From: Heterotrichella gracilis
Taxonomy: Eukaryota > Sar > Xanthophyceae > Tribonematales > Xanthonemataceae
Length of the DNA stretch: 38,169 bases
Assembly (NCBI GenBank): GCA_032358255.1
Contig: JAULBX010027330.1
Span: 1-38,169, forward strand
Reading direction: 5' to 3'
Part shown: piece after piece, positions 180-38,169 of the stretch
Numbering within the stretch: position 1 is the first letter of the stretch
Layout of the letters: each line of letters begins with the position of its first letter
The notes under the pieces: model-generated
Database searches by the model: none
What the model saw: the letters and a program-made list of their open reading frames with translations, nothing else
Told to the model about the DNA's origin: nothing
Made by a program: the position numbers and the translations under genes

Positions 180-2490
180 GCCTGCAGTTAAAGCCTTGCT
201 TCTGCCTGAAGGTCGGGCAGTAGAAGATCATCCTCCGGGGAAGGACCAGGCTGTTGGGGGACACCCACAGCCTAGGAAGCTGCCTCGCCTGGTGCCTCAA
301 CTGCCTCCCAGGCAAGCCTGCCTGGCCTCCAGCCAAGGGGTCACTGGGTGCTGCTGCCTTTGTAGCAGTATGCCTGGCAGCTGATTGGCTCACAGGAGGG
401 TGGTGGATCAACTCCTGTGGCTGTGTCCCAGCTTGATTGTCCGCTGGTTGCTGCACAGGAGGGGGGTGCATCGGCCCCTGTGGCTGTGCCTCCGCTGGGT
501 GGATCGGCTCCTGTGGCTGTGCGTCAGCTGGATTGTCCGCTGCCTGCTGGTTGCAATCCACTGACTCCGCGTCAGCATCGGCAGCGTCTGTGTCCATTGG
601 CTGCACAGCTGCTTCCTCCACTGCCATAGCAGCATCTGGTACACACGGTCACATTCACAGTAAAAGGGAGTTCACAGCTGCCATTGGCTCATGGCCTTGT
701 GTGCACATCGTGATGCAACCCAGAAATTGAAGTTAGTGAATAATCTGTTGCGTGCTAGGGCCTGCATCACATGACTTCAAACTACAACCAAGGGGTCAGG
801 AGTGGCAACAGTGCACAGCAGCGCCTGTCGTCAAACCACAAACACACCGTATGTCTGCGCCTGTGCCTGTGCTCGCAGCTTGGCCGCCTTCCTCCGCTGC
901 CAGCTGGGCAACCTCCCCTTCCTTCCCTCATTCCCAACACTCCCCACCTCCCTCGCGGATGTGAAAGGGCCAATAGGCGCCCTCTGGCCAGGCACCTGGC
1001 GCCCCATATCACATGGGTGGTGGGGGTTGGCATCCTCCCCTGCGGTAATGGTCACATTGTGTCCCCCTTGCAAACCTCTGGCTCCAGATGGCTCCCCACC
1101 TCGATCCCCACCACAATCCCCGCCAACTGCATTGCAATCCCTGGGAAGCCGTTCAGAGGCTGGGACTGCCCCGCCGCGTTGTCCTACTGCTGCACTAGGC
1201 TCTGCTGTGGGTGTGTACCTGGAGTGCGATAGCAGCGGCTGCGCAAACTGGGACTGGCGGTGGGCCTTGCTGTTGGCTGCTGTCTGGCCATAGGCGATCT
1301 GCTTGGCGACCTGCATTGGTTTAGGGTTAAGGGTTTAGGAGGGCAAAACCCTAAACCACAAGGCGGGGTTGGAGGTGGGCATGCCTTGCAACTCCAACAA
1401 CTGTGTGTATAATAGACATAAACCAGTGGCACGAGTATATGATAATGCGCCAACGTGCTTGGTTGTGAACGCTGTCACCTGTGCCCGGCTGAGCCGGCTG
1501 CCCTAAACCCTAAACCCTATGCCGCGCTGCACCGTCTGCCCAGTGACCTGCACGTCAGGTTCAGTTGTGTTTCCAGAGTTTAGCCTGCACCACACCTGGT
1601 TGACTGGCTGCCCAGTGATGTGCAAACAGGGTTTCAGTGAACAGGTCTAGGGTTTTAGGGTCAGCCCCCGCATCACACCTGGTTGACTGGCTGCCCAGTG
1701 ACTTGCAAACAGGGTTTCAGTGAACAGGTCTAGGGTTTTAGGGTCACCGCCCGCATCACACCTGGTTGACTGGCTGCCCAGTGACTTGCAGGTAGCATCC
1801 GTTCGCCAGGGGGACGAAGATGGTGACGTGGACGAGCACGAACAGCATCAGTTCGTCCCCGATGCGTGACAGCAGCAGCTGCCATGCTGGGCTGTGCTCC
1901 AGCTGTTCCTTGATGATGTTGGTGTGGTAGGGCTCCGCATTCGACAGGCCTTGCACGAAGGACGAGGAGTCCAGCGACGGTCGCTTCTAGCGGTGGAAAT
2001 GGTGCACACAGCACAGCAAGGTGGTAAAGGGGTTGAGGCAAAGGTTTCACAACGGTAGGTAAGGAGGACATAAGAGTGGCCTTGGCCAAGCGTACCTTTC
2101 TGTAACCTAATGAGAGGACATTGCCGTCCTTGCGTCCGTTTCTGATTAGCAATTCGATTGCCCTGTTCAGCACCTGCACACGGTGATAGAATGTAGGACT
2201 AGGAATGTCCTTTTAACGCCGTGTGTATGCATGCGTCATGTGCATGCATGCATGTGCTGGCTCGGTGGCCCCACCTCTGAAAAGGACGATTGCTGCCCCA
2301 ACTCCGCCTGAGAAGGACACTGTACCGCAGAGTTTATGTGCACTATGGACTTTGATAGAAGGCTTCTGTACTCCGGAGGATCATCGTGCTGCACAAGGTC
2401 AATCGAGCCCTGTGAGAGGCCTCTGAGCAAATCTTGGAAACTGAGAGACGTGTCGTACAGGGCTGCCAACACTGAGCTCTTTATCTGCAT
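180..2490 (-). CDS. TERT: Telomerase reverse transcriptase, N-terminal part (partial)
   Basis: Catalytic subunit of telomerase, which copies an RNA template onto chromosome ends. Five exons join in phase on the minus strand: 2275-2490, 2096-2173, 1762-1986, 848-1310 and 180-635 (about 479 residues); the rest lies beyond the left edge. Residues 1-173 resemble the TEN domain: LVQHDDPPEYRSLL (compare LVQRGDP in human TERT), then GNVLSLGY, then SRIGDELMLFVL and YLQVTGQPVNQ (human RVGDDVLVHLL and YQVCGPPLYQ). Exons 4-5 are a low-complexity linker with a PADAQPQEPIHP-type repeat; the end of exon 5, PRRMIFYCPTF, matches the segment before the RNA-binding domain. The start at 2490 follows the family's usual N-terminus; the frame is open further upstream. 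The last donor (GTACGT after 180) is inferred. Reverse-transcriptase motifs are outside the window. Confidence 0.85.
1318..1357. repeat. Inverted interstitial telomeric repeats in TERT intron 3
   Basis: TTTAGGG-type units at 1318-1339 are followed by CCCTAAA-type units at 1345-1357, so the two arms face each other. The pair abuts the 3' splice site of TERT exon 4 (exon starts at 1310 on the minus strand). Confidence 0.85.
1501..1520. repeat. Interstitial telomeric repeat in TERT intron 3
   Basis: About three CCCTAAA units, next to the most decayed copy of the TERT exon 3 end. Confidence 0.9.
1526..1800 (-). repeat. 83-base tandem copies of the TERT exon 3 end and splice donor
   Basis: The end of exon 3 with its donor (CAACCAG|GTGTGA on the minus strand) lies at about 1753-1800. 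Near-identical copies start at about 1670 and 1587 in the intron, a period of 83 bases; a fourth, eroded copy lies at about 1526-1565. Each unit carries TERT coding sequence, a plausible donor and a telomeric tract (1647-1661 and 1730-1744). The two extra donors look usable. Confidence 0.93.
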
Positions 2491-3806
2491 GGCAGCCTCG
2501 ACAACATGACTACTGAAGCTACAGGGACTGCAGCGTTTCAGCTGGTTAGCGTTGGCACAACTGCTTTGCACACAGGTGCAGCAACGGTTGGAAAGACTGC
2601 ACAAACCATGCAGCTGTATTTATAGCTGCGACCGTTGATGGTCTATTTTTTGTATAGCAACATCTTGAGGTTGAGGGTTCTTGTAGTTGAAGCCCTTTTA
2701 GCAGTTGAAGCCTTTTTGGAGGTGTGTCGCTGATTAGGGTCATACAACAGCAAGCTAGGGTTCTCCAAAGCCCAAGCATGTCCAGTGAACATGATGTGCC
2801 ATACAACCTCAGATATTGGTGACCTGTGATCTTTCACCCTTTCCTATTTCTGGGGGTCTTCCTCCCCAGGTGGACATCCTGGGTCCCAATTTGCAAATAC
2901 CCAGAATTCAGAAAGGAAGTCTGCTTTGCTTAATGTCACCATGTGCGCCGTAATAGCAGGGCACCTTTACATTACTGCAGTGGGGAATTTCAGCCACAAC
3001 GTTGGGTACCATCATATAGTACCTAACCTTGCACGCTTGAATACCATCGTTGCACTTCAAAAACCACAATGGTGTCCTTGACGATGGGTACTTGCACTCA
3101 GAACCTAACCTTGAAGCCTCAACTCGAAAAGCCTTGTACTGGCATCTACACCAACCCCCTTAGACTACTGAGACAAAACATGATGACAACACCAAAGACA
3201 ACACCAAAAGCAAACGGATGTCAGTTGCAAAAGGGCAACAAGGAAGAGGCTGACAAATGTGTCGCACTCCTCCTAAATCTACCTACCTATCTACTTGCCT
3301 CAGACACTTGTGCAAAACCTAAATGATAACTGAGAGGGGCGCATCATAACAGGAGGAGGGTAACACCGAAATTGGTTAAAACACCGCGCCTGCACAAGCC
3401 ATGGTGCACACACTACTAGGAGAATCTGCCCGACACACAGAGCTTACGAGTTGTGTGACGGACCAACAACAAACACGCTGAATGCAGTGCCAACCAACAG
3501 GGCCCCATAATCATCCCAAAAAACAGAAATGTGAACCAACACACCCAGGAAATTGCGGGGACAAGGAAAAACAACTGCCATGAACTGTGGCAAAACCATC
3601 AAAGCAGTTGGTACGCAGCGGGCACATGAAACAGGAGCAAAATAAGAACTGCAAACCCCCATGGCTGGGGCTGCACCGCTTGGGATTGTGTTTTGACTGG
3701 AGAGTGGATTAGTGGTTTAGATGGAATCAACTTCCTTCTCCCAGGGGGAAGGGGTTGGCGGCGAACAGAATTGCAAGATGAAAACTGCATGATGACATCT
3801 AAAAAG
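2491..3806. other. Intergenic, between TERT start and the unknown gene's stop
   Basis: No gene I can support. It should hold the TERT promoter and 5' leader (minus strand) and the 3' region of the upstream unknown gene. A short imperfect direct repeat of a TAGTTGAAGCC-type unit occurs near 2680-2720. Open frames here show no recognisable protein and lack matching splice signals. Confidence 0.6.
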
Positions 3807-6800
3807 TCAAACGCCCCGAATGTAGTGCTTCTTCAGCACCTTGCCCCCTTGGACCCGCCCAGGCTGTTGGTCCTTGCCCCCCTGCGCGCGCTTTCCCTCC
3901 CCGTGGCCATAACCACGCCCCTCTTCTGAACCCTTAGGGTACTGGGCGAACAACATGGCGCGCATCCTCCCCTTGTGCATCCCCACAGGGTAGTCCGCGC
4001 CCTTGCTCGCGCGCACCTTACCCCCCTTGCGTGGCCCAAAGAGTGGCTCCGAGGTCACCACCATGCGCACCTTGCTCCCCTTGTAAAACCCTACGGGGTA
4101 CGCCACCGACTTGATCATGCGCATCTTCCTCCCCTTGTGTTGCTTAGGGTTTAGGGTTTGATAGTGCCCATGCCCATCCAGCCAGGGACTAGCAGGCACT
4201 CGGAGGCCCCGCAGGTGGTGGCGGTGGTGGGTGCCGCCCCCCCCGTCGGACACGTCGTAGGCTGTGGCGGGGATGCGGAGCGCGTGGCTGGCAAGCAGGG
4301 TGGCTGCCAAGGATGCGGTGTTCATCATGGTGTTGGTTCCCCCCTGGAAATCGGCACACAGCAATGATTACAACAAATACGAAAATAAATGGAATGGGGT
4401 GTTCTGCTGCCTGTTGTGTACCAGGCCCCGAATACTGGGGACACCTTCACATGCACGCAATAAAACCCCTGGCAAATGCAACAATCACAAGGCCCAAATC
4501 CTATACAGCAATTTCAACCCCCGCCAACACCGCAGCCACCCACCTGCGTCACAGCCCCGATGATCTTGAGGCGCTGCTCCGTGTGGGGGTGCAGGCGAAA
4601 GTGCCCACCCGCAGCCGCCTGGTCCACTGCATGAGGGGGAGAGGGTGATGGATGGATGGTGAAAGGGAAGGTCAATCAGGACGTCGAGGAACGGATGGTG
4701 AGGGGAGGGTCACACACACAGCAGCAGATTAAGCCAAGGGTGTGCGCGATGGAATCAGAGAGAGGAGGTGGAGGGATAGCAGGGGCAAAGAGTACAAGGG
4801 ATGGATGGTGAACATCGGTTTAGAAATTTAGGCTTTGGGGTGAGGTATTTAGGGTTTAGGGTTTTGCGCGCACCCATGGCATTGCCAAACAGGATGCTGC
4901 CCAGTGCGAGAGTCACGCAAAACAACATCGCAGCGGCATAGATCATGCGATGTGCGCGGGGTATGCGCGCGACTTGGCGCTTGCACGCCTCCCACACACT
5001 GCCGCAGCGGCCGCTGATGCTGCCGCCGATGGCCCTGCCGGCGGCGCCGCAGGCGGGCCGTTTACCGACATTGCTGGCGCAGTCGCTGCCGCTGTTGTTG
5101 CCGGTGTTACCCCCAATGCTGCTGCTTTTCCCACCGCCGCCGGCGCCCCGCGAAGCCTCCGATGGCGACTCAATGCGCATGACCCCAAGCGCCACATGTC
5201 GATCATCCAGCAGGCGAGCGAGTAACGAGGGCTGGAAGTTGATCAAGGCGCCGGGGATGCTGAATTCCTGTGGGGATGCGTAGCTGGTTATGCTGTCCCA
5301 GAATCTCCACAGGCTGAAGGACGCAGGCTCGGGCTGTGTTGGGGGCTGCGCTGGGGGCGGGGGGCTGGTGGGGGCGGGGCCAACAGCGGTGACGGGTTTT
5401 GCTGCGCGGGAGGCAGCGAGAGACCCACCGTCCTTGCCTGCACAAAGGGGTTTGGGAAGGGTTTTAGTGAAGTGCAGGTATGAAGTGGTTGGTTGCAAAG
5501 GGCTAGTTGAGAAGCGGCACTCCCTAAACCCCCCTTTATGCATGCCACTGCTGCCCCTATGCAATACCAGCAAAGGACCGCTGACAATTTAAGTTCAGGG
5601 TTCAAGGGATGGAGACAGCAAGGGACCGTTATCAATTTAGCAAGAGGGGAATCACTCAAACATCACACTGTGATTCACACCACACAGCTGCACAGCAACC
5701 CTGGTTTTAGGATGGGGTCACTGTTCTTTGCCGGCCCCGTAGCCCATGCTCAAGTTCTGGATGCAGGTTCAGAAATCATGTATACACCTGTTCTGCCGAC
5801 AAGCGTAGGGTACATGGTTTGTGTATCCAACTGTCCTGCCGACAAGCTAGGGTTGAAGGGTTAGGGTTTTAGGGTTTGTCTGTTCACCTGTCCTGCTTAC
5901 AAGCTTGAGCATCTTCAGGGCCGGTGGTGGTGGTGGTGGTTGCGCCACTGGCTGCTGATCCTGCTGCTGTGGTGGTGGTGGTGGTGGTGATGCCACATGC
6001 AGTGGCTGCTGCAGTGGCGGCGGCACCACGGGCTGCTCCTGCTGTGGTGGTGGCGGCGGCGGTGGTGGTGGTGCTTGCTCCCGCGTCTCCTGCAATGGTG
6101 ATGGTGGCAGCGGTGGTGCCACGTGCTGCAGCTGACGTGGCGGTGGCGGCGGCGGCGGCGGTGGTGGTGGTGGTGCCAGCGCCGGCGCAGGGCGAGCGTG
6201 CGGTGCCCTCTCCAAGACGTGGTTCCAGCTCCCTTCAGGCCGCGGCCGCGCCACCGGTAGGGGGAGTGATGTCACCCCCACCGCACCCCCACCCCCAACG
6301 CCACCGCCAGAACCCACCCCTGGTGGTACCGCAGGCTCGGTGGGGGTCTGTGGGACGCTGGGCGCTGAAAGGGGGATGGCTGGGGCAAGCTGGGGCTCAA
6401 AATAAAACGTGGCTTCCGCCCAGGGGGAGATGATTGGCTGCAGGGGAGGTCCAAAGTAGACCGGGGCATCCGCCCAGGGGGAGACGATTCGCTGCGGGAT
6501 TGCAGGGGAGGTCTTGGTGGGGCCGGCTGGGGGTGGCTGGGGTCCAAAATCAAAAGTGGCTTCCGCCCAGGGGGAGACTATTGGCTGCGGGATTGCTGGA
6601 AATGCCCTGGGAGGGGTGGCTGTGGCAGGCGGGGGTCCAAATAGTCCATCATCAATCAGGGCTTCAGCCCAAGGGGAGATGATTCGCTGCGGGTTTGCAG
6701 GGGAGGTCTCGGGGGCCGCGTTTGGGACAGGCTGGTGTCCAAAATGAACAGTGGCTTCTGCCTCAGGGGAGACGATTGGCTGCGGGATAGCGGGGGGCGC

Positions 6801-7154
6801 CTGGGGGGTGGTGGCGGCGAGGGGTGGGGGCCTTGCCTGGACGGGTGGGGACAGTGGCTGTGGCTCCTGTGACACAGCCCTTTCCGGCCCAAACACCGCC
6901 ACCAGGGGTTGCTCTATGTACCCCGACACGTGGAGGGGGGTGGGGGGCGGGCCTGGCTTAGCGGCGGGGCTGGTGGCGGGCGACACCTCCCGCCACCTGC
7001 CCACGGTGGCGAAGGGCGCGGGGGTGGGGTGGCGGGGGGAGCCTGCGAGGTGGGCCAGGTGACGTAAGCCGCTCAGCACGCCTGGTCGCCTAGGGCGGGA
7101 AGCCACGGCGGCTTGCGCGGGGGTGGGGACGTCATCCCTGGATACGAGCTCAAA
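3807..7154 (-). CDS. Unrecognised proline-rich protein with one membrane segment (partial model)
   Basis: I do not recognise this protein. Four exons join in phase on the minus strand: 5888-7154 (from an acceptor GCGCAG), 4874-5437, 4544-4626 and 3807-4343 (terminal, stop at 3807-3809). The first is proline-rich, with five degenerate repeats around IPQPIVSPWAEATF and several polyproline tracts. The second holds FWDSITSYASPQEFSIPGAL, a Gly/Ser linker and a hydrophobic stretch MIYAAAMLFCVTLALGSILF that looks like a membrane helix. The third reads HTEQRLKIIGAVTQ into GGTNTMMNTASLAATLL of the fourth, which ends in basic KG-rich repeats. A telomeric tract sits inside the last exon frame, so that exon may be split differently. 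Upstream exons are probably missing. A cell-wall or membrane role is possible but unsupported. Confidence 0.5.
3930..4140 (-). repeat. Degenerate repeats encoding YPVG..KG.KVRM-type units
   Basis: On the minus strand three or four units of about 55-65 bases encode AYPVGFYKGSKVRM, EPLFGPRKGGKVRA, DYPVGMHKGRMRAM and QYPKGSEEGRG. Reading frame is kept across units, which favours real coding sequence over a chance minisatellite. Confidence 0.6.
4144..4159. repeat. Interstitial telomeric repeat
   Basis: Two TTTAGGG units between the conserved part of the unknown gene's last exon and its KG-rich repeats. On the minus strand the frame stays open and encodes a TLNPK peptide. Confidence 0.85.
4848..4865. 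repeat. Interstitial telomeric repeat just after a splice donor
   Basis: Two to three TTTAGGG units lie within 10-25 bases of the donor that ends the membrane-segment exon (exon edge at 4874, minus strand). Confidence 0.85.
5779..5912 (-). repeat. Three copies of a splice-donor region (exon-edge echo) with telomeric tract
   Basis: The real exon end and donor lie at about 5881-5912 (plus-strand core CCTGCTTACAAGCTTGAG). Related copies lie at 5822-5858 (core CCTGCCGACAAGCTAGGG) and 5779-5816 (core CTGCCGACAAGCGTAGGG). A telomeric tract of TTAGGG, TTTTAGGG and TTTAGGG units at 5848-5878 separates the real edge from the first copy. Confidence 0.85.
6390..6800 (-). repeat. Five proline-rich coding repeats
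   Basis: On the minus strand the frame holds five units with the core P(Q)xIxSPWAEA followed by an aromatic/acidic patch and a Pro-rich spacer. Synonymous differences and variable spacers with an unbroken frame suggest selection at protein level. Polyproline tracts encoded at about 5925-6180 follow. Confidence 0.8.
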
Positions 7155-9084
7155 CTGCGCGGCGGGTCAGCGGTGGTTCAGCACTGGCCGAATGGGGTGG
7201 TGGTGCAGTGGTAGTGGCGTGGGTGGGGTGGGTGGAGGGTGGGTGGGGCGGTTGAGCAGTGGATATGGCGGGCAAGGATCTGGTGACCAGTCGGCTGGCA
7301 AGCGGTGGGTGCTTCAACAAGGAGCAGGTGGCAGGCTGGAATGGGGCTGCTGCTGCATGCATATCAGCAGTCTCGAAAAAGTGCGGGCAAGATGACAAAC
7401 CGTGGAAAAAAGCAGCTTTTTGTGCGCGTTCTACGGGTTTTCATGGGTCAATGCGTCGCGGCGTTGGCTATTCCAGTTTGGTGGGCTATACAGTGGAGCG
7501 GCCGAGTGCGTCGCCCACCCGGGATGTCCCACATGTATTACTCACGTTGCTGCTGCTGGGTACCCAACTTTTCCGGAACGAATGGGGTGCTCATGGCCAA
7601 CAACGGTGGCGCCAGGACGTTGTTAATAGAAAAGACGAGTATGCAGCAGTACATCCAAGGCTTGGAGCAGCGCGCGGGGCATGTCGCGCACCACGAGGTA
7701 AGTCCACGTCTGCAAATCGGTGGTGCAGGGGCCCCCCAAAAGCTCCCCGGGCAACGATTGAACCGGCGACCCCCCGCCACCCACTACACCCACCGACCCC
7801 GCAAAAAAGGTATCTTGAAACCGCCGGGGGTGGTGTGCGTCGAGCATTGCGCCTATACTTGCGAAACAACAGGCGCACGCTACAGCTACACAGGCTGGAA
7901 GAGTGCTTACCTCCGAGAGTAGGTCGTCTTCCCCGAGCATGGGTTCCTCAACGGTAGCGCCAGAGGCGCTTTTCCGTGCTACGCAATGGTAGATATGGGT
8001 CCTTCCATGGTGCAGCGAGGACTCGTTGACACGGCAAGTACCCCTGTGTAAGGGCCTGAAAACTTTGGAACACCCTGTGGGCCCAGCTTCCTGCCGACAC
8101 CTGGTCCCTCGCCAGGCGTACAGTCAAAGGGTGGAGAGCGTCACAAAGGGATAAGGTTCTAACTGGGTGGCCCAAAGCTTGCTTTGTGACGCTTGCAATG
8201 GCTGCTTTGGAGGGCTTTATGTCGTGTGGGGTGTCGAGGCTCATCATACCACCTCGGCAGGATTGTAATAGGTCCTGTGAAACGGGGAGACATAATATTT
8301 CTCCCTCGCTTTAATTGTATTGCAATCATCACTTTGCCAGCTCAGCATTGTCAGCCAATCACAACGCAGCGACCACCCCTGCCAGGTGGAGCCTTGGCAG
8401 CGCCTGCAGCGTGCGAAACAAGTTTCTCGAACCTGCTGCCCTCTTCAACCACGAGGCATACAGCCCCGAGTTCAACGGACAACAGGTCAGGTTGCCCTTG
8501 AACACGTGCTCTATCTCACAAGCTGTGGTGTTGCGGTCAGGCACCGCGGAGGACAAGTGCTGGTCACCCAGCAAAGCCATCATGGTACATACTCGTCGTG
8601 ATTGAGCTTCCGATTGTGCAACTTGTTGGGTTGGAAACAGCTCGCTGTACTTGAACCACTACCTGGAATCCGTTTTCTGAGGTAAGCGTAGTGTAATACA
8701 TAAGGGGTGAAGCCAGGATGATACACACCACTCGGGTATTTCCCTTGTTGGGTCTGCAGCTGGATGAACCAGAGCTATCAAGTTGATAGGACAGCAACAC
8801 TTTTGCACTAACCCCTTAAATCCTGGTCGGTGGATAGTGTTATCAAGAACCATTCACTACCTCTGCCTACAAACTACACATACAGGGCTACACACCAAAT
8901 CAATGTCATAGGTAGGCAAGCTCAGTTGTGGGTCTACAGCAAGTCTACAGCTCACTGCAAGACTGCAAACTGCACCCGGCACAACCCACCCCCGTTCACT
9001 GACATCATACTACCCTGCACTGCCCTGTGAACCCCACCTGTGCCCCCTCCCCATTTCAAACCCCACCCCGGCTTAATGACCATT
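7155..9084. other. Unresolved region with exon-like signals on both strands
   Basis: No gene model I can defend. On the minus strand, 7917-7960 reads EEPMLGEDDLLSE into a strong GTAAGC donor, and about 7542-7640 reads APPLLAMSTPFVPEKLG into a GTGAGT donor; these could be upstream exons of the unknown proline-rich gene, but frames between them do not join cleanly. On the plus strand a 205-codon frame (7305-7922), with a GTAAGT inside it, and one at 8315-8605 are also open. None resembles a family I know. Confidence 0.4.
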
Positions 9085-9566
9085 GAGCATCACCCCACCT
9101 AGGCGCATTTGGTCCGCTCTGCTGCTGCTGCTGATACCCTATGCCTCCCTGTATCCTACACTTGCCGTGAACACAGCACGCGGCACCTCAAAAATGCACG
9201 ACAAAAGTGCCACTAGAAAATCACCCCACTGGTTCACCTGTGCCTCCCCCACTCGGCAACGCCCCCACCACCCGCCACCATGCATTGGCCCTTGTGGCTA
9301 CACCTGGCGCCACTGCTGTTATTAGTACTGGCAATGTGTGGCCCCGCAGTCCCCTAGCACCAACAGATATCACCCTGCGCAACCAACTTGTACAAAGAAC
9401 ACACGCTTCCACCTGTTTCCCCCTCCAAATCTCAAAACCCCCTCTCCTCCCCACCGCAGGCCCCCCACATCTCCCGCCACCATGCATCGCCCCACATGGG
9501 CGCACCTGGCGCCGCCCACTCTGCTGCTAGTACTGGCCCTATGTGGCCCTGCAGCCGCCATGTACA
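9085..9566 (+). repeat. Triplicated leader and signal-peptide exon of the P5 gene
   Basis: The start of P5 exon 1 (from 9482) has two diverged upstream copies at spacings of about 202 and 195 bases: 9280-9357 and about 9090-9160. The nearest copy shares the CCCGCCACCATGCAT start context and the CACCTGGCGCC and TTAGTACTGGC segments; the oldest keeps only a scaffold such as CCCCACCTAGGCGCA and CTGCTGCTGCTG. The duplicated unit is about 200 bases, so the leader was probably copied too. Confidence 0.88.
9280..9357 (+). pseudogene. Decayed copy of the P5 signal-peptide exon, stop-truncated
   Basis: ATG at 9280 opens a 25-codon frame ending in TAG at 9355-9357. The peptide (MHWPLWLHLAPLLLLVLAMC...) parallels the real signal peptide (MHRPTWAHLAPPTLLLVLAL...), but the stop falls where the real frame continues into the mature protein. 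If transcription starts upstream it would act as an upstream open reading frame. Confidence 0.85.
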
Positions 9567-12500
9567 CCCCCAATGGGGCTGTGAAAGTGCTCAATGGCAA
9601 GAACTTTGCCAGCGCGATCCACGGCAGCAACCTCCCCGCGGTGGTCGAATTCTTCGCCCCCTGGTGCGGCCACTGCCAGCGGCTGGCCCCCGCGTGGACC
9701 AAGGCGGCTGAAAACCTGCAGGTGCGCCGTCGCCCCTCGAAATGCATTGGGCCGAAACACCGCCGCCAGCACCAGCACCAGCACCAGCACCACCGCCACC
9801 GCCACCGCCACCGCCAGCACTACTCTGTGGCCACAGCACATGCATGAGCCAGCGTTCATGGCCTGCCGCAGGCGGCGGTGGTACCCTTACACAGGGTGTC
9901 TGCATGTGGTCCGACGTGCCATGCCATCAGTGACACCCTAGGGTTTGGTGACGGTTGGTGCTGTGGACTGCAGAAACCCCAAACCCTATTCCTACACCCT
10001 GAGCTACTCATACCTTGTGCGCAGGGGCTGGTGACTGTTGGGGCTGTGGACTGCGACCAGGATATGAACAAGCCGCTGTGCGGGGAGTATGGCATACAGG
10101 GCTTCCCAACAATCAAGGTGGCAACCCTAAACCCTAAACCCTAAACGGTTACCCCGCAGGCCCTTCAGCCCTGCACAACCGTGGGCTCCTTCAGTTTAGG
10201 GTTGGGGGCGCCAAGTCATGTGTCACTGGTCCAATCATTCGCAGCACCAGCGTTGCACATGCACTGGCAACCTTTGTGCCCGAGTGCAGCCCCTCCCTGC
10301 TGCGGCATGCGGCAAAGCTTGCTGTTACCTAGGTACTACAAATGTGTTACTTAAACCAGGTTCTGGTGTGTAGGGTGTTACAATAACCTACCTAGGTGTT
10401 ACGGTTACCCTGGCCAGGGTTTTGACAGGTTCCTTGTGCCCCCCTGGTTGCAGACCTTCCCAGCTGAAGCGAGGGGCAAGCGCAAGTCAGCAAGTGACTA
10501 CAACGGTGCGCACACATATACCCACTGTTTAGGGTTTTGAATTGGCAAGCGCAGCGCCAAAGCCATTGTGGCCCAAGCCCTGTACGTGCTGACTGATAAG
10601 CACATAAAAAGGGTCAAGCACGCCCTTGAATTGACCTGCATTGGCCAAACCCTTCACCCTTAACACATGGTCATCTTCGCACCTCCCGCCCACCGCCCGC
10701 CCACCCACCCCCGTCTATCCCGCAGGCGAGCGCAGCGCCAAAGCCATCGTGGCCCAAGCCTTGTACATGCTCACAGACAAGAATATTAAGAAGGTTAAAA
10801 ACGCCGCTGACATGGCGGTTTTCGCCTTGGGGCCCGAACCTGCCAAGGTGGTCCTTTTCACCGACAAGGATACCACCACGGCCCTCTACAAGAGCCTGAG
10901 CATGCGGTTCAAGGGTCGGCTAGGGTTTGCCGAGGTGCGCAAGAGCCGCGCCCCCGATGTTGTGGAGGAGTATGGCGTGGAGAAGTTCCCCTCACTGATG
11001 GTGCTGCAAGGGGAGGAAAAGGTGGTGTATGAAGGTGGGTGAGGGATGAGGGGAGGCGAGGATTCAAGGGTTTTGTAGGGTTTGACGAGGTGTGCGAGAG
11101 GTTTGGGGTTTGGGGTTTGCTGGGGCGCTCAATTGCCGCACGCCTGGTGTTGTTGGCCCCCTACCCAGGGGATGAGCCATCTTGTAGTCTCCCGCCTGGA
11201 TCATACTTCCCCCCCTTGCTCGCAGGCGCCCTCAAGCCCCTCAAGCTGATCGAGTTCCTCAACAAGTATGCGGGTCCAGGGGGAGGCGATTCGGTGAGTA
11301 CTCCCCCGCCTGACCACCATCACCCCCCCTTTCCCTAAGTGTATGGTTTAGAGTGGCCACGTGCGTGGATGTGCACATTAGGGTATTACCCATTAGGATA
11401 TTGCCAGTTAGGGTTTGATGTGGGGTGACACGCATGGGATGTGCGTATTGGAGCGTGGCCCAGTGGTGGGGCTGCATCTTTTGAGTATGTCATGTTCAGG
11501 GTATTTCACAGATGGTTGTGATGCAGCGTTGGGGAAATGCACCATCGGGTATCAATACCATAGCGCACCTGACCAAGCATGCTCATTAGGGATTGGGTAC
11601 AAGGGGTTTGATGTTTTGTTGCACATTAACAGGACGGGGAGGAGCCCAAGAAGGAGAAGGTCACCCCCCAGGTGGTGGTCCACCTGGCGCCAGGGGAGGT
11701 GGCGGGAATAGAAGGAAAGGAGGGGATGTACCTGCTGGCGTTTGTCAAAGGTGAGGGCAAGCATGATCGCAGTATAGGTCGATCAAATCGCACTTGATGA
11801 TTCATGTTTTGCATCTGCTGGCATTCGTTATAGCCAGGTGGTCGGGCGCCAGCAGGTGCACGCACATACCAAACCTCCCCAACCCTATTACAAACCCTAA
11901 CCAAGGGTTTCTGCCCACCCTGCAGGCAAGGACAACTGCCCCAAGCAGGCAGCGGAGCTCAACAAAATTGCGCACCAGCTGGCGGGACTGGTGCTTGTTG
12001 GCCAGGTGAACGTATCAGATGCGGCAGGGGAGGAGGCAGCCAAGGGCGTTGGGGTGGACCCTTCGGGGTTGAGCTGCAACCCTAGCCTGGTGCTACTGCC
12101 CTATGGGGAGAAGGGCGATGCAGACGAGTACCTCAAGTTCACCGGTGGGTGGTTGGGGTGGGGTGGTGGTAGTGGTGGCTGTGGTGGTGGCGGTCGTGCT
12201 GGTGGTGGTGGCGGCGGTGGTGCTGGTGGCGGTGGTGTGGGAGGGTGGAGGTGGTGCCAGGGCTATGGGGATACATACGGGGTGACATGCATCCCCCCAC
12301 CATTTCAAGCTTGTAAGAAATGTAATCACCCCCAAAGCCATACACCATGGCTGCCCTCTTACATTCAACCCCCTCCCCAATTCCACTTCCAGGCAAGCTG
12401 ATTGCCAAGGCGGTCCAGGACTTTAGTCACCAAGGCAGCCCCAGGCAACTTTGTGACCCAACTGAACTTTTCCCTGGCTAAAACCCTGACTATGGTGACC

Positions 12501-15500
12501 CTCTTGCCTCAATATCCACCCCAATACCCTCAACCCGTGAACTAACGCTGCCCCCTCACACTACAACCCTAAACCCTAATCCCCACTCCCACACAGGCAA
12601 GCTGAGCGCCAAGGCAGTGCAGGACTTTGTGACCGAGGCAGCCCCAGGCAACTTCGTCACCCGCCTTGACTCCACCTCTGGCCAGGTGTTCTTTAGCATG
12701 AACCCAGAGCTGCCCAAGGTGCTGCTGGTGACTGGCAAGGATGAAACCCCAGGTGGGTGGCGTGATGGTGGTGGTGAAGGTGGTGGTGATGGCGTTGGTG
12801 GTAGTGGTGATAGTGGGAGTGGTGGGGCGGTGGCGGTGGGTTTGGGTGGTGTGTTCTTCAGGATGAACCCCCATCTGCCTAAGGTGCTGCTGGTGACTGG
12901 GTAGGATGAACCACTGGGTGGGTGGCTGTGTGATTGTGTGTTGATGGTGGTGGTGTGGTGGCGGTGGTGGTAGTGGTGATGGTGGTGGTGGTGGTGATGG
13001 TTTTGTGTGCGTTTGCGAGCGGGGTGTGTGTAGGCAGTAGTGCCCTAACGAAAGACATGCAATGGTGGGTGGTCATTTGAGACGCACCCTGAGGTGTTAA
13101 AGGTGCTGCTGGTGACTGGCAAGGGTGAGGCACCAGGTGGGGGGCTGTGATGGTAGCATGGTGGTAACGGTGTGGGGAATGGGTTGCATGGGTTGTGCAA
13201 GCAGGGGTTGAGTAGGCAGTGGTGCACTTAAAACAAGGGAAAAATGCCGTGGTGGGTGTCTTTTGGGTTGACCCCCGGGCTGCGCAAGGTGCTGCTGGGG
13301 ACTGGCAAGGGTGAGGCACTGGGTGGGTGGAGATGGTGGCGGTGGTGGGGAGGGTGAGTGTTTCTTGGGATGAACCGCAAAGGTGCCCAATGTGATTGAT
13401 AGAGCGACAAATTAAATGAGTAATATCATATGGATTTGATTGACCTATTGGCACGATCCTCTGATTCCCCACCTTCCATCCTCATGCGGCCGCCATGGTA
13501 TGCCCGTGAACAACCTGCTTCGCCTCAGGCGAAAGAACCCTACAACAAGTTGACAAACCTCCTGCATGCACCTCCTTTGCAGGCGTGTACCGCGCACTGG
13601 CCATGAACCTGCACCGGCTGGGCTTTGCATTTGCGGATGTGCACCAAGATGAGAAGGCGCTCATCGGCATGCTGGGGCTGGAAGCGGTGGTGAAGAAGGT
13701 GGGGAGTAGGGTTTGGGACGTAGGGTTTTGGATTTCAGGGTACCAGAATAAGAATGTGTTTATTGGCATGCTGGGGCTGGAAGCGGTGGTGAAGAAGGTG
13801 CGGGCGGGGTGTAGGGTTTGGGGCGTAGGGTTTAAGGTGCACCAGGATAAGAAGGCTTTGATTGACAACAAGGCTTCCAAGCAGCGCGCCAGCTTCCACC
13901 ACTTTACTGAGGTTGAGCCCCAAAATACATTGTAAAAGTAAATTGTGCCCACTCCTTCACCCCCTGGTGCAGTGATAATGGTCAACATTGACAGCCCCTC
14001 CAATCCCCTCAACAGCTCAAACCATGCGCTGCCCCCCTTCCCTGCAGGTCCCCTCGCTGGTGATCCTATCGCTCTCCCCTGGCGCCGGTGGCCAGAACTC
14101 AGACCCTGATGCGGGTTCCAAGATGATGGTCCAGCCCTACCCAGGCCCGCTCAAATACAAGTCGATGGCTGACTACCTCATGGCGATGGCAGCAGTGCTA
14201 GGGTACGCGCTAGGGTATGCCTCGCTGGGGGTGCCTGCTAGGGTGTGTGTGCACGGGTATGCTGCTAGGGTGTGCGCCGCTAGGAAATTCATTCGTCAGA
14301 CTGCGAGGAGGGTTTTAGGATGACGGTGCAGCACCACAGTACCCAGGCCCACTCAGGTACAAGGCAATGGCGGACTATCTCACAGCGATGGCAGCAGTGC
14401 TAGGGTAATCCTAAACCCTAACCAAAGGAAGGAAGGGAGATTGCGCGCATGTACCCTACCATATATTTTTCCTAGTGCGCTCAAAGAATATGGCAGGGTT
14501 TAGGGTTTAGGGCCATGTCAGGGCCATGGGACCAGGAGATAAACACTCGAAATCCCTACCCATCTCCCTACATCTCATTCCCTCCACATCCATATTCCCT
14601 CCCCGCGTGCAGATCCGCCCCTGATGCCCCCCCTGCCTCCGCCCCCGGCACCCTCACCCAGGTCTCCTCCCAGTCAGACTGGCAGGCGGGGTGCGTGGAC
14701 CAAGGGGGGGTGGTGTGTGTGGTATTTGCAGTGGACGGGGAGGGGAGCGGCCTGCAGGAGGAGCTGGAGGTGGCGAGGGAGGTGGCGCGCAAGGAGGTAA
14801 GGGTTCAGATCTAGGGTCTAGGGTTTTGAGGGTTAGGTTCGGGTTTAGGTACCCCCTGGTGCCAGCCAGTCCTCTGAATCCGCCTCTGTGCGTCCCCTTT
14901 GTAAATTTTTTCCTACCCCCATTCCTGCTATCCTTTCCTGTCGTACCTCCACACCACCTACTCCTACCAACACCCACCAGCGGAAGCCCCCATATCTGCC
15001 GCCCTTTCTGCCGCCCATTTCTGTCTCTCAACAACCAATTCCACAGTACCCCTCTCTCAACCACTACCCACTCACCCCACACCCCCACACCGCTGATCAT
15101 GTCGCTGTGCACATACCACCACCACCCACCACTCACCCCCCCACCCCCCACCGCAGCGCTCCCCCGCCCTCCGCTTCCTGTGGGTGGATGCCCCCCGCCA
15201 GCCCACCTTCCTGGCCTCCCTGGGATTGGCGCCCGGGGATGCACCGGTGGCGATTGCCCTGGCGCCGAAAAAGATGCGCGCCAGCCGGCTAGGGTCTGGG
15301 TTTGATGCAGGGCAGATGGCGAGCCAGTTGGGGCGTATGTTGTCAGGAGGGGCGAGCACTGAGCCGATTCAGGTGGGGTGGGCTTTGTCTTTTGCCATTA
15401 ATGTCCCAGAACTTCAGTGAATCATGGTGGTTACCCCATACATGGTGTTTCTGTGTCAATGCAACATTTGCGCGCCCATCCAAGAACTTGCCTGCATCAG

Positions 15501-16218: not shown

Positions 16219-17407
16219 CCTCTGCTGTGGGGCTATGTGTAGCATGGAAAGTAGTTTTTGAGCTGCTTTAACCACAGAAAGGCTGTCATGCATGATTTCA
16301 GCAACACGCTCTGTCAGCGTCGTGCACCTGACAAAAGGCTTCATTTTACAAGATGCATGTGTTCTGAGGCGGCACAGCACAGCAGCGGACTCGTGATCAG
16401 CATGGCCAGGATCCGTTTGCTAGCACAGTCAATGTCTCTTGTGAACCACAGTCCACCATTGGTGCAACAGCACCATCCTTTTCCCTTGCATGCAGTTTCA
16501 CAAGTATATTTGCCACTGATAGTATTCGATAGCAGGGTGCGCACAGCCGCCCAAGCACTGCGTAATCAGTTATGTAAAATATAATTATTATACGCACGCA
16601 AGGCACTGAGTGCCCATGCCAATGCATGTCATGCCTAGCAGCTGCGACAATGGCAGCACAATATCGATACTGTGCTCCGTGGCAGATGCCATTCAATTAG
16701 GAGCTCGCAGGAGCACAGCATTTGTAAGTAAAATTATTTAATTTGTCATTATAATGATCAGCGCGCGCAGCATGTGGGCGGAAATGGCTCGCTTGTGGCC
16801 AGCCATGAATGTACTGCACCACTGGTGGCAAGCAAGCAAGTTTTGAACCAGTCATCATTCATAGTCAGTGCGGTCAGGGTCCGGCGTGCCTGTGCTTTCT
16901 GACAGCCATTTGAAGAATGAACGGGAAAGGGCTGCACAATGCCATGCAGTGCAAAGGTAGAGGGGCACACGCCCGCCGGTGGCTGTAAAAATCGTCAGAC
17001 AAGAGTACAAGTGAGGGTCTGGGATGGGACACAAATGTCTGCTGTCCCCCGCTGCTCCTCCAGCTACATGAAAGGCAATCGTGGAGAGGAGGGTGTCCAC
17101 CGCAATGTGGCATGGGCTGAGCCACATTGAATGCAATGTGCTCGTCAAGCACATGAGCCATGTATCATATGATAGCCCACAAGCAAGCACCCTCTTCTGC
17201 CTCAGCCCCCTCCCCCCACTTCCCTCCCATGGGGCATTGCCTCGTTCACGTATTCCCCCTTCAAGGAGTCCTCTGCCGTGCATGAGGCTGACAGTCCCGC
17301 GGGTGCGCCCCCTCCAGCCTGTATCACACATCCCTCCAAGGACTCAGCCCACATGCTGTATCAATAGGTTGGAGGCCTCATGACCCTGCACTCCCCAGCA
17401 CCATGCT
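16219..17407. other. Intergenic between convergent P5 and CCDC12
   Basis: No gene supported. A TGTAA, the usual chlorophyte polyadenylation signal, occurs at 16573-16577, about 355 bases after the P5 stop, in a locally AT-rich patch; it is a candidate 3' end for P5. A 158-codon minus-strand frame at 16855-17331 has no recognisable features. Confidence 0.5.
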
Positions 17408-17536
17408 TCAGTCCTGTATACCCCCATCCTCTGCCAATCGCCGCTGCTCCTCCCGCTGCATGAGCACGATGCTGATGGTGCCGCAGCTGTAGTTCAGCCA
17501 GGTATCTGCGTCACGCTGCGGGTCCCAGCTGCTTCC
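17408..17536 (-). pseudogene. Decayed downstream duplicate of the CCDC12 last exon
   Basis: On the minus strand this copy reads SSWDPQRDAD, then a diverged middle, then LMQREEQRRLAEDGGIQD and a stop at 17408-17410, parallel to WDLQRDAAP...LMQREEQRRLAEEGGIQD of the real exon. The period is 183 bases. It lies past the real stop, so it falls in the 3' UTR or beyond. The C-terminal half is far better kept than the middle. Confidence 0.92.
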
Positions 17537-17590
17537 CAAAACAGCGCCACACGGTGCATCGGGCATGCAACCCCTTCAGACCACAGGGAT

Positions 17591-18917
17591 TCAGTCCTGT
17601 ATACCCCCCTCCTCTGCCAGCCGCCGCTGCTCCTCCCGCTGCATGAGCGTGATCATGGCGCGGATGGTGCGCCGCTCAAGCTTGTCGAGCAGGGGTGCGG
17701 CGTCGCGCTGCAGGTCCCAGTTGGCCTTCTTGGGGGCAACATTCAGCAGCACCTCCTGCGCAGGAAAACTATATATAAGAACATGGTAAACTGTAATAGG
17801 GAACACGGTAAACTGCAATAGGGACCGGGATTTTCAGGCAATTGCAGGCAACGTTCAGCAGCACCTCCTGCAGGCCATGCGGTCGTACAGTCTGCACCCA
17901 TAGCATTGTGGCAGGTTTTGGAAGCTAGAAAAGGTCTTGCGTGATTCCAAGGGAGGTGGGTACGTAAAAGCAGGGGGCTGGAGTGGATGGTCAATACTCA
18001 GCACGAGATGGCGTGTGCGACCCATCTTGGCCGCTTACTCGCAACTGAACCCTAAACCCTAAATCTCAAGCCCAAGCCCCCTTGGGCTATCCATCATGTT
18101 TATGGACGACAGGATACTGAACAATAAACCCTTTGCATGGTGACTGGTGCCAAGAGCCAGGGGGGGCGGGGGGTGAGGTTGGCTTGTGACACAAAGCACA
18201 CCCGGTACGTACCGCATCGTTGGATGTGGCTACAGGGTCTGCTTCGGGCTTTGGCTCCTCGAACTTTGGGGGTTGTGCAGCCTCAATCTGCAGAAGGTGC
18301 ATGTCAGATGGGGATAGCCACAAATGCCATGGCGTCAAAGAGAGGGGCAACACCCACAATGTCCAGCATGTATTCCATGCCATGCGTCTGCATGCATATG
18401 CGCAAAGCAGACCATAACCAGTGGAATAATATGAATATGGGCGTGATACGTACCTAAAAATGGCCAAATGAAGCCAGATGCGCCGCATCAGTTGCAGGAA
18501 GTACCCCATATTACACGCATGCATATGCGCAATGGACATCTAAACTTGAGCAGAGTTGGCACAACGCATGATAATACGTTAGGTAACGCAAGCTGTGCAA
18601 GGGTGACTAGCCAACTATATGGTTGCTGCAGTGGCTCACTGACCACTATATGCATGCATATGCAACACAGACGCCTTGGTTGAACAACCCTGGTTACTGT
18701 TATACTACGATACCAGTACGATGGTTACTTGCCAATTTACCTTTTCGTGGTCGATTTTCTCATCCCTGGGCATGTAATTCCGAAACTTCAACACCGGCTC
18801 GTCCGCCGGCAGCTGCGCCTGCTCTGCTGGTTCCGCCGTTTGAGGCTGCTCATCGTCTAACCGAGCTGCCTCTCGCAGTGCTCGTAGCCTCTCCTTTCTG
18901 GCGGCAGGGTCCTCCAT
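17591..18917 (-). CDS. Coiled-coil protein CCDC12 / Cwf18, spliceosome component
   Basis: Small nuclear protein of the Cwf18/CCDC12 family, a component of activated spliceosomes. Three exons on the minus strand, all phase 0: 18741-18917, 18213-18287 and 17591-17755 (138 residues; human CCDC12 has 166). Family features in order: ARKERLRALRE near the N-terminus, LKFRNYMPRDEKI, an acidic/proline linker (PPKFEEPKPEAD), then EVLLNVAPKKANWDLQRD and a charged C-terminal helix with LERRTIRAMITLMQREEQRR. The start at 18917 gives MEDPAARKERL, matching the family N-terminus. Intron 2 holds an echo of the last exon's start and a telomeric tract, and a full decayed copy of the last exon lies downstream. 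Confidence 0.92.
17845..17876 (-). repeat. Echo of CCDC12 exon 3 start with acceptor, in intron 2
   Basis: On the minus strand CTGCAG|GAGGTGCTGCTGAA then CGTTGCC repeats the exon 3 start (GCGCAG|GAGGTGCTGCTGAA then TGTTGCC) with an intact AG. With the downstream copy, the last exon has echoes on both sides. Between them, 17782-17826 holds a short direct repeat of a GGTAAACTGTAATAGGGA-type unit. Confidence 0.88.
18048..18063. repeat. Interstitial telomeric repeat in CCDC12 intron 2
   Basis: Two CCCTAAA units. This is the rightmost tract before the F-box cluster; the next clear one is in CDC48 at 36 kb. Confidence 0.9.
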
Positions 18918-25453: not shown

Positions 25454-25503
25454 CTTCTGTCTGATCATGATCCTTAGCTCTTCTGTCTGATCATGATCCT
25501 TAG
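25454..25503. repeat. 26-base tandem duplication
   Basis: CTTCTGTCTGATCATGATCC occurs twice with a 26-base period. Each unit contains the palindrome TGATCA. Confidence 0.95.
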
Positions 25504-26670: not shown

Positions 26671-26788
26671 AGCCAGGTCTGCCAAATTTTAGAAGTTAGC
26701 AAATATGTGCATTTCAGTGAGGAAGCCACAGCCAGGTCTGCCAAATTTTAGAAGTTAGCAGGTGTGTGCATTTCAAATAATGAAGCCA
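26671..26788. repeat. 59-base tandem duplication in F-box gene C intron
   Basis: AGCCAGGTCTGCCAAATTTT starts at 26671 and again at 26730. The two units differ mainly at AAATATG versus AGGTGTG. Confidence 0.95.
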
Positions 26789-27450: not shown

Positions 27451-27520
27451 CGGTACTACGTCCTACGCATTCCCACTGCGATATCGATACTACGTACTGC
27501 GCATTCCCACTGCGAGGTGA
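27451..27520. repeat. Short tandem repeat in F-box gene C intron
   Basis: Two units of about 35-38 bases share TACTACGT and GCATTCCCACTGCGA. A partial third TACCACGTACCACGTACTAC lies just before. Confidence 0.85.
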
Positions 27521-30587: not shown

Positions 30588-32504
30588 CTACACCGCCTGC
30601 TTCACAAAGCGGATGCCTGTGTCTGACAGCTTGTAGAAGAAGCGCTCGTGGAGGGAGGAGGGGGGGGAGGCGGGGCAGGGGGTGCGGTGGGTGACAAGCA
30701 TCTGCAACAACGGGGAAGGGCGTTGGCAGGGGTTGGCAATTCAAAAATCATTCTAAGCAGGGGTTGGAATGATGCAAGCAGGGGTTGGAAAATGCAGCGC
30801 GTGTATGTATGTCTAGGATGGTCGCATAACCACACTTTTATATGAAACATGTCCCAGTGGCAAAAGTCCCAAAAAATCAAACAAACAAGCCACCATACCC
30901 TCCCCAGGACCCATACCATGGCCTGTCACACCACCCACGTGGCCAGTCATATGTCGGATTCTCCTTCACGCGCTCCAGGGAATGATGAATGCAATTTAAA
31001 TACACAGTGAAAACACATGGCATCATGGTGGATCAATGCGCTTCCATGATACATTGATTCTACGCCGAATCAATGATGCCAAAACCAGACCCCCAGCACA
31101 TAACATGCAAGGAAGGAACAGGACAGGGATGCAACAACCCTGCCATGCCCCTTGCCATGCCCGTCGCACCATACAACCCACCTGGCCCGTCACATCCCCC
31201 ACCACCCGCTCCACCCCTTGCACCTCCACATCCACACTGCTGCTGTGCCGCAGCACAGCCACCCACCCTGCATCCTCCATCACATCCCCATGCACCACCG
31301 CCACCACCACACCGCCCCCCGGCTGGGCCCCCACCAGCGCCCGGCAGTACTGCACCCAGGTGATCAGTCTGGAGGGGGTGGGGTGGAGGGCAGCAAGGGG
31401 GGAAATGGAGTCGAAGATCAGGGAGACGGGGAGGGCGGGGTGGGTGTGCAGGCTGTGCAGCGCGGCTTTGATTCGGTGGTACGTCGCTTGGAGCATGTCT
31501 ATGGGGGTTGGGGTGGGTCCAGGTTGATGGGATACATGCTACAGTTGGTGAGGAGACACAATGACATACCACGTAGACATGAGCGGGCATTTGTGATCCC
31601 CATGGCACGCCCTCGTGGGACTTTATGCAGCGTTGAGCTAGCAGGCTCAAACCCACGCCGTTGCCCAATGCATTTGCCTTGCTACAAAATGCAATGTTGA
31701 CCTGGGTGAGTGTGTTAACAGACAGCCATACTGCCGTGCCGCACATGCACCTAGGCACACTTTCCAGCATCGGCCCCCACCCAGGCACACCCAGTCAGAC
31801 CCGCACCTGGTTGCTCTGCGCTGGCCATGGGTTGCGTGAGCAGGTCCACAAACACAAACCTGCCCTGGTCATGGAGCGTGTGCAGGCCCACACCCTGCAT
31901 AGGGTATGGGAAGGGTAAGCAGCAGGGCTGCGGAACAAGACCGAGGTGTGTATTCAACTATTAAGGGCGGTCTGGCAACTTTCAGATTATTAGTTCGTTT
32001 TGCGGTGGGGGGTGGAACGGCACTGGGCTGTGAATGCGTGCGCGTGGCTGTTTTGCACGTGGTAACTTTGCACCATGCGAGCGAGCAGGTGGGTGGTGCG
32101 CATGTTGGCTACACCAGGTTAGCAAAACCACTCACACTTGCTAATGTTTTGCTGCAAGTCATCTCACCCCTTTGCTGCATAGCCCACAAGCCGTACTTGG
32201 CATGTGCGTACCTAGCTATATAGTTCGCACTCGACAGCATATGCATGCATATGGCAATCTGCCCCGTTTTCCCCCAAACCCCTTCACCACACACGGGCTA
32301 CAACACTTTTTAACGTACCAGCTTGCGCATCACTTGCTGATAGTGTGGCAGGGTGGCCTGGAGGCCCACCAGCACGGCTGCCCCACCCCCCTGGAGGGTA
32401 GTGCGCAGGTGGTGTGCCAGCAGGAAGCTGCCACTGGCTTGGACGCTGTCCCTGATGAGGAGGAAACCCTCCTGTGGGGTGCTCCAGTCGTGCGCCAGCG
32501 CCAT
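30588..32504 (-). CDS. ELP6: Elongator complex subunit 6
   Basis: ELP6 forms, with ELP4 and ELP5, the RecA-like hexamer of Elongator, which modifies wobble uridines in tRNA. Four exons on the minus strand join in phase: 32319-32504, 31807-31894, 31182-31498 and 30588-30701 (234 residues; human ELP6 has 266). Matching features: GSFLLAHHLRTTLQ and LPHYQQVMRKL in exon 1 (human GSFLVHHFLSFYL, FSHYSIVGQKL), RFVFVDLL in exon 2, SLIFDSISPLAAL and TWVQYCRALV in exon 3 (human PVLLVDDLSVLLSL, IHYCRATV), and ERFFYKLSDTGIRFVKQAV at the end. As in the family, no Walker A motif is seen. Start 32504 matches the family N-terminus. Its start faces CDC48 across about 500 bases. Confidence 0.85.
30928..30978 (-). 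repeat. Diverged echo of ELP6 exon 3 end in intron 3
   Basis: On the minus strand GAGCGCGTGAAGGAGAATCC, then GACTGGCCAC|GTGGGTGGTGTG, resembles the exon 3 end GAGCGGGTGGTGGGGGATGT, then GACGGGCCAG|GTGGGTTGTATG. It keeps a GT at the donor position but has lost the AG before it. No telomeric unit is nearby. Confidence 0.6.
32238..32256. repeat. GCATATGCATGCATATGGC palindrome
   Basis: A near-perfect palindrome in ELP6 intron 1 or near its splice edge, one of seven exact ATGCATGCAT sites in the window, all outside exons I could assign. Confidence 0.85.
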
Positions 32505-33002
32505 AGTGGGTAGGCCTAGGTGCTGGCAGGGTCATTGTGGTGCGTGGAGGGCCATGGGAGGCGAGTGGGGTTGTTTGCAGCAGTAGCAGTCATGGCATGG
32601 TGATGGCATGGAGTGGCACCTAGCATATGACCATCATATGTGGTTTAGAAGTTGTTTTTATGGTTGAAGTGTTGTATGCATGTGAAACAGTCTGCACTGA
32701 CTCGAGAGTCTGACGGCACTGAAAACCCTGGTATAAACCCTACTGAGTGGGCGATCATGATCACCGGAAGCACCCAGAAGCACTCGCCATATGCATGCAT
32801 GTGAAACCTCGGCAATTTCGTGTGGCGCGCCCAGCAAATGACCATAACCTTCTCTCGCCAACACCACTTGCCCACTATATACTGCGCAGTTACGATTCTC
32901 TCACTTTGTATTATCATTGGGTTTCGTTGTTTCCTGTTTTGAAAGGGAACAAGGCATCCTCGACACGGAAATTGGGTGGTGGCATCATCGCATTCAGGCA
33001 AC
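32505..33002. promoter_or_regulatory. Divergent promoter region between ELP6 and CDC48
   Basis: Starts of the two genes face away from each other across 498 bases. CTATATACTG at 32874-32883, about 120 bases before the CDC48 ATG, is a possible TATA element for CDC48. An ATGCATGCAT palindrome (about 32788-32803) and a related TATGCATGTGAAAC near 32676 share the string TGCATGTGAAAC. Promoter function is inferred from position only. Confidence 0.5.

Positions 33003-38169
<5,167 letters not shown>

Follow-up and report, generated by a model that had tools for sequence, protein, structure and literature searches.

The window analysed here is an entire contig (C482; 38,169 bases) of the 68.5-Mb, 903-contig genome of Heterotrichella gracilis. 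It carries part of TERT, an unknown gene, P5, cwf18/CCDC12, ELP6 and CDC48. Many introns of this genome hold decaying copies of the edges of their own flanking exons, often together with tracts of the telomeric repeat TTTAGGG or its complement CCCTAAA. The pattern looks like the scars of DNA that was broken near splice sites, capped by telomerase, filled in and rejoined.

Genes, introns and sample

Three neighbouring exons of TERT, translated and joined manually, match the TEN_TERT domain (E=9.4e-7), and CCDC12 corresponds to the cwf18 domain (E=1.4e-24). P5 is a thioredoxin-domain protein that keeps the name given in the first-pass annotation of this DNA. The first 783 predicted residues of CDC48 align with residues 7 to 782 of plant CDC48, and the exon borders used for this gene are therefore supported.

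The sample consists of the window and twenty stretches of 10 kb, regularly spaced on contigs C2, C13 and C24, 238 kb in total, and counts below refer to it unless the window or the genome is named. A small hidden Markov model, self-trained on the sample, gave 33 gene blocks with 376 exons and 343 introns. This gene finder merges neighbouring genes and predicts some false small exons; for CDC48 the exons that it predicts are consistent with the protein alignment. Introns of 80-1500 bases that have no N and are flanked by exons of at least 20 bases were usable (268 of the 343). In the window, both edges of 34 hand-curated introns of the six genes (68 exon edges) were compared with their own intron against a background of intron sequence from other loci, with a cut-off of p<=0.02.

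Copies of exon edges in introns

A copy of a flanking exon edge is present in 51 of the 268 usable predicted introns at a score of 32, where length-matched introns of other loci predict 0.2 (rate 0.0007 in 5360 trials). Distant introns of the same locus give a rate of 0.0012 (1654 trials), and the intron's own reverse complement and own reversed sequence each give 1/268. The 57 aligned copies come from the donor side in 34 cases and the acceptor side in 23, and 39 of them span the splice junction. The distance from source to copy has a median of 154 bases (5-95% range 84-218). The layout of these alignments is X-A-J-A'-Y, where the edge segment A recurs as A' across a junction J.

The first-pass annotation had counted about twenty copies in the window. 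The copies are real, with 14 of the 68 edges significant where chance predicts 1.4, and z exceeds 5 in 10 of the 14; the figure of twenty is somewhat high as a count of significant copies and includes cases seen by eye only. Significant edges fall in P5 (9), CDC48 (3, one of them weak at p=0.01), TERT (1) and the unknown gene (1, p=0.0199), nine on the donor side and five on the acceptor side. ELP6, which had also been listed, has no match in this test at p<=0.02. CCDC12 is not among the significant edges and enters through a pair that the edge test did not cover. Identity runs from 100% over 29 bases in TERT down to 64%.

In a self-comparison of the 238 kb, pairs within 1.5 kb of at least 35 bits, with copies lacking a telomeric word, are 98 direct and 12 inverted, and all 12 inverted ones are single palindromes. 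Farther apart there are 10 direct pairs at 1.5-5 kb and 6 beyond, and 39 pairs link different loci (5 direct, 34 inverted, at 35 bits). The excess of duplication is thus local and direct, and near-purely so in orientation. Direct, local duplications of variable length are what paired-nick tandem duplication produces, and such duplications in plants are reportedly a close known system.

Introns with a copy have a median length of 388 bases, against 271 without, which fits the proposal that copies make introns grow, as a correlation. Splice sites that may act as decoys are also present: among junction-spanning copies GT is retained in 14/20 and AG in 11/12.

Two trivial sources of the signal were considered. 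Divergence between the copies makes an assembly artefact improbable for most pairs; no judgement is made for L024:8286, which adjoins a run of N. Simple repeats do not account for the signal either, as the edge share is still 79/94 when the sequence is unmasked and filtered only loosely.

Two sampled stretches (L015:538-902 and L016:7161-7842) contain a similar exon, both with edge copies at its end, and the genes are probably paralogous.

Copies in the genes of the window

TERT has a donor-edge array at 1587-1790 on the minus strand, with an 83-bp unit in 2.5 copies according to Tandem Repeats Finder and a TCTAGGGTTTTAGGG tract in both full units. Within it the 29-base edge at 1762-1790 is repeated exactly at 1679-1707 (minus strand, p=0.0033, z=7.5).

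P5, on the plus strand, has the largest set. The exon start at 10025-10054 is copied at 9942-9971 (87%, z=6.1), preceded by CCCTAGGGTTT and followed by AAACCCCAAACCCTA, both tracts read by eye. A (CCCTAAA)3 tract at 10124-10146, also seen by eye, lies about 6 bases inside a donor for which no edge copy was found; the acceptor edge of the same intron is copied at 10291-10341. The exon start at 10726-10826 is copied in the preceding intron at 10545-10646 (101 bases, 76%, z=28.3), and a GTTTAGGGTTT tract, by eye, stands just ahead of this copy at 10527-10537. The exon start at 12597-12684 has a copy at 12393-12480 (82%, z=20.4; a wider alignment takes in the acceptor), with a CCCTAAACCCTAA tract between the two at 12564-12580, a position set by eye. 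The exon end at 12686-12749 is copied at 12851-12914 (84%, z=15), and more copies lie at 13086-13128 and 13255-13314. The donor edge at 13643-13768 has a tandem copy at 13742-13867, a 99-bp unit with TAGGGTTT tracts in every unit. The exon segment at 14099-14205 is copied at 14296-14407 (107 bases, 82%, z=29.2), and the gene finder predicts 14357-14404, within this copy, as an exon.

The P5 5' end, including the start codon, is itself duplicated about 200 bases upstream (9244-9554, 73% identity), so edges besides internal splice sites may be affected.

CCDC12, on the minus strand, has a copy of its exon region 17590-17723 at 17407-17531 (77% over 135); this is the pair outside the edge test.

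CDC48, on the plus strand, has a weak copy of the exon start 35750-35831 at 35596-35675 (64%), which may be a chance match; a shorter pair nearby, 35646-35678 and 35733-35765, has 82% identity over 33 bases (34 bits). The exon end at 37072-37135 is copied at 37192-37246 (78%, z=5.5) with GGAACCCTAAACCCTG ahead of the copy. The exon end and donor at 37507-37589 are copied at 37629-37711 (90%, z=15.8), where the GT of the copy is now AT, and a TAGGGTTTAGGGTTTA tract lies at 37578-37593 between the exon end and its copy.

LRR genes at 20-29 kb of the window are, by eye, free of telomeric words and duplications.

Telomeric tracts and their link to duplications

Telomeric tracts of at least 9 bp occur at 1.15 per kb of intron, 0.09 per kb of exon and 0.22 per kb of predicted intergenic sequence, and the reversed motif gives 0.10 per kb of intron. 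At 14 bases or more there are 42 in introns, 2 in exons and 1 in intergenic sequence, with none for the reversed motif. Exact telomeric 21-mers number 406 forward and 428 reverse in the whole genome, chromosome ends included, and the reversed motif has 0. The sampled introns thus hold interstitial telomeric sequences, that is, short telomeric tracts at non-terminal sites. They lie closer to splice edges than a uniform spread would place them (mean scaled distance 0.40 for 95 tracts, p=6e-4).

Tracts and copies occur together: a tract is present in 27/51 introns with a copy and 39/217 without (Fisher p=1e-6). Direct flank duplications, one of the scars expected at a break site, enclose 37 of 76 tracts of at least 12 bases, and inverted ones enclose 0/76; random intron positions give 11%, and other-locus controls none at a score of 28. 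When tracts are merged to clusters, 19/47 are flanked by direct duplication, against 15.6% of positions drawn at random from introns of these loci and 6% of positions far from tracts.

The association also appears from the side of the duplications. Among 77 non-overlapping duplication clusters, 14 have a tract in the gap between the copies (5.1 expected), and in edge clusters of at least 90% identity the fraction is 7/12. Telomere-like junctions were tallied after excluding two of the 57 junctions, which exceed 160 bases. They make up 11/26 at identities of at least 88% (1.25 expected from copy-free introns; reversed motif 2), 5/17 at 82-88% (0.95 expected; reversed motif 1) and 3/12 below 82% (0.75 expected; reversed motif 0). 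J is thus telomeric in many young cases. At donors the junction tracts are G-rich in 7 and C-rich in 5 cases, and at acceptors C-rich in 7 and G-rich in 0. This absence may be read as selection against TTTAG, which would make an acceptor.

Order of opposite tracts

Where both broken 3' ends had received a cap before joining, the two tracts would have to meet in the order TTTAGGG, then CCCTAAA. This order was counted across the genome, with places merged by hand from match lists and counts that may be lower bounds. With two repeats per side and a gap of at most 25 bases, TTTAGGG-then-CCCTAAA has at least 11 matches at 10 places and the reverse order has 1. With ten-base words and a gap of at most 30, there are at least 46 matches at 36 places against at least 10 at 7 places (two-sided binomial p=9e-6 for the places), one place, C33, being common to both lists. 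At gaps of 31-60 the matches are at least 32 and at least 10, with 22 and 10 new places (p=0.05) and 1 for a reversed-motif control, and at 150-180 they are at least 71 and at least 55 (p=0.18). The order bias is strong and short-ranged, and the short-range order is that of joined telomerase-capped ends.

Of 10 fused-tract places whose flanks were compared, three (L033, L030 and L037) have a flank duplication above their own mismatched controls; L029 and L035, where the flank match is itself telomere-like, were left uncounted. In L033 an exact 43-base duplication flanks TTTAGGGTTTAGGG-A-CCCTAAACCCTAAA and holds a donor-like CAG|GTGTGT, and by eye it suggests that the broken 3' end was in register with the added repeat, whereas the boundaries of other cases have diverged too far for this to be read. 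In L030 an exact 18-base duplication flanks a fused tract of that kind and holds an acceptor-like CAG|ACG. Both splice sites were recognised by eye, at places lacking a gene model. In L037 the flank duplication is diverged, with a score of 29 where its own controls reach at most 20.

Proposed repair of staggered breaks

The best explanation of these data, and one that we consider fairly probable, is a staggered break at which telomerase often lengthens the 3' overhangs before fill-in and end joining. If the two strands were nicked some 20-160 bases apart, both broken ends would carry A, the sequence between the nicks. Telomerase, as the putative source of the tracts, would extend one or both 3' overhangs, and the C-strand would then be filled in. 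End joining would give X-A-(TTTAGGG)n and/or (CCCTAAA)m-A-Y, and X-A-(TTTAGGG)n-(CCCTAAA)m-A-Y where both ends were capped. If A has one end in an intron, one copy would be spliced out, and the event would therefore be nearly neutral. Selection would keep the exon copy and the intron copy would decay, leaving a longer intron and a second splice site. The first-pass annotation had proposed that breaks are mended through local duplication and the addition of telomeric repeats, and the direct pairs, the tracts between flank duplications and the order of capped ends support this well.

Several observations weigh against repair of this kind. In the sampled introns, adjacent opposite tracts within 100 bases are 1 G-C and 2 C-G, too few for the order to be supported there. 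Seven of the 10 fused-tract places have no accepted flank duplication, and L037, at 29, scores less than the top control of a different locus (32). In 63 of the 77 clusters the gap holds no 9-bp tract; unless tracts have decayed, telomeric addition therefore does not accompany every event. The filler of many junctions (50-150 bases) is not telomeric and does not copy the flanks either. The link between tracts and copies is significant in one of four intron length classes, that of 300-450 bases (16/25 introns with a copy, 10/60 without). Five stretches (L019, L020, L021, L023 and L028) bear genes, and none of them has more than 1 duplication or more than 3 seven-base telomeric words. Either the process is patchy or it is not the same in all genes.

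Competing explanations

A tract that was already present could be the cause rather than the product, if fragile intronic telomeric repeats led later slippage or template switching to duplicate the adjacent sequence. Arrays that repeat A and tract as a single unit (L022:5664, L026:4299, L026:893 and window 13643-13867) are consistent with this, as is the covariation of tracts and duplications between stretches (Spearman 0.63, 20 loci). In L033 the sequence past the second copy starts with TTTAGGG, and A contains tract-like sequence. In L030, however, the tract is found only between the two exact copies, within 130 bases on either side, and slippage predicts no order of opposite tracts. This explanation appears rather unlikely. 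Break repair and slippage may both act, the first event priming the site for more.

The edge pattern could also arise if small tandem duplications fall at random, tracts are a common intronic simple repeat, and edges are conspicuous only through conservation of the exon copy. In 62 of the 77 clusters a coding-edge copy is matched with one that is less coding; of the others, 12 have two noncoding copies and 3 have two coding copies. A simulation placed duplications uniformly in gene bodies, removed events with both ends coding (5214/20000), froze exons and let introns decay; its uniform break rate, frozen exons, removal rule and author-chosen length distribution are assumptions. Survivorship must contribute, given the share of simulated events removed, and the 63 gaps lacking a tract also suit random duplication. 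The simulated edge share is 44.7% (34.9% over whole loci), against 62/74 observed (p=4e-12), and pure survivorship is thus insufficient within the assumptions of the model. The share is 24/30 at identities of at least 85% (p=2e-5) and 12/15 at 90% or more (simulated 0.407, p=0.002), and the unmasked rerun retains it. A stricter count, which omits 18 clusters with a wholly coding source, a class that the simulation removes, gives 44/56 (p=2e-7), with 17/23 (p=0.002) and 9/12 (p=0.017) at the same two identity limits. Survivorship therefore accounts for part, not all, of the exon-edge pattern. With tracts tied to duplications and arranged in a preferred order as well, random duplication is an unlikely explanation.

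Under repair of staggered breaks, we think that the breaks are concentrated at exon edges, and the earlier proposal of breaks near splice sites stands to the extent of this statistical excess over the neutral simulation. Transcription or splicing as the cause of the concentration is a guess, as are transcription, splicing-linked structures or nucleosome edges as the origin of staggered breaks there. A wider proposal, possible but doubtful at present, is that breaks focused on junctions through transcription or splicing, with telomerase routinely taking part in their repair, are a principal driver of intron lengthening and of the gain of alternative splice sites in this lineage.

A mobile element that copies its flanks or makes long target-site duplications, raised as an alternative in the first-pass annotation, is very unlikely. 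The exact 43- and 18-base flank duplications around short inverted-repeat inserts in L033 and L030 do resemble target-site duplications, but those inserts are telomeric repeat and little else, and the source-to-copy distance is variable. The same insert does not recur at many places: 47 of 57 copy-plus-junction segments have no match at other sampled loci (238 kb, E<=0.01, telomeric words masked), which disfavours a single family, and 4 of the remaining 10 are matches between L015 and L016, apparently paralogous genes.

Partial exon duplications kept by selection to serve alternative splicing would suit the retained GT and AG and the copy that the gene finder takes as an exon, but are hardly plausible, since identities spread from about 77% to 100% and some splice sites are lost (GT to AT in CDC48), as under neutral decay.

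Relation to known systems

In mammals, telomeric repeats inserted at repaired breaks have been established by comparison with empty sites (PMC2246262, PMC7215372). Like the tracts described here, those inserts are short and lie at break sites, with some target duplication and a reported head-to-head case. Target duplication is a minority there, at 6/130 rodent and 4/25 primate loci (PMC2246262) and at 3/66 horse loci plus further complex cases (PMC7215372), whereas here 37/76 tracts lie between direct duplications. Human inserts are described as occurring in introns at random expectation, whereas here introns and exon edges are favoured.

Small tandem duplications can arise from complementary 3' overhangs that are filled by CST-guided Pol alpha and then end-joined, and the same machinery fills in telomere C-strands (PMC8355091). 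These duplications are direct and local, and by the model outlined in that report A would be overhang sequence. Telomeric repeats between the copies and concentration at exon edges distinguish the present cases from what is described there. Telomeric insertion and CST-Pol alpha duplication would both find their substrate in a staggered break that leaves 3' overhangs, and the two would there combine.

Stwintrons of Lipomyces (PMC7138796) also have a duplicated donor inside an existing intron. The abstract of that report refers to the donor element and to no telomeric repeat, whereas the present copies extend into the exon and acceptor edges are copied as well. Novel intron positions formed by tandem duplication (PMC2891723) likewise involve splice sites, but the copies described here lie in existing introns and adjoin their own edge. 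A literature search over titles and abstract openings, with few subscription journals, found no description of exon-edge copies with telomeric repeats. The ingredients are known elsewhere, and their combination, frequency and place appear to be new.

Intron lengthening and the gain of alternative splice sites usually have to be reconstructed from sequence that is old and blurred. In this genome the scar is still visible in about one-fifth of the sampled introns, at many stages of decay, and some scars bear a recognisable trace of the repair enzyme. A single genome therefore allows counts to be made of intron growth through break repair, of telomerase action outside chromosome ends and of where breaks fall relative to splice sites.

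Repeats within exons

A predicted exon of the unknown gene contains a roughly 93-base tandem repeat (window 6448-6815, minus strand), both copies of which are coding. A predicted exon of this gene also includes, by eye, a TTAGGGTTTAGGGTTT tract at 4139-4160, where the exon call may be wrong. P5 exons hold in-frame CTAGGGTTTG and CTAGGGTCTGGGTTTG at 10919-10930 and 15288-15304, also seen by eye, and these are possibly telomeric remnants that have turned coding.
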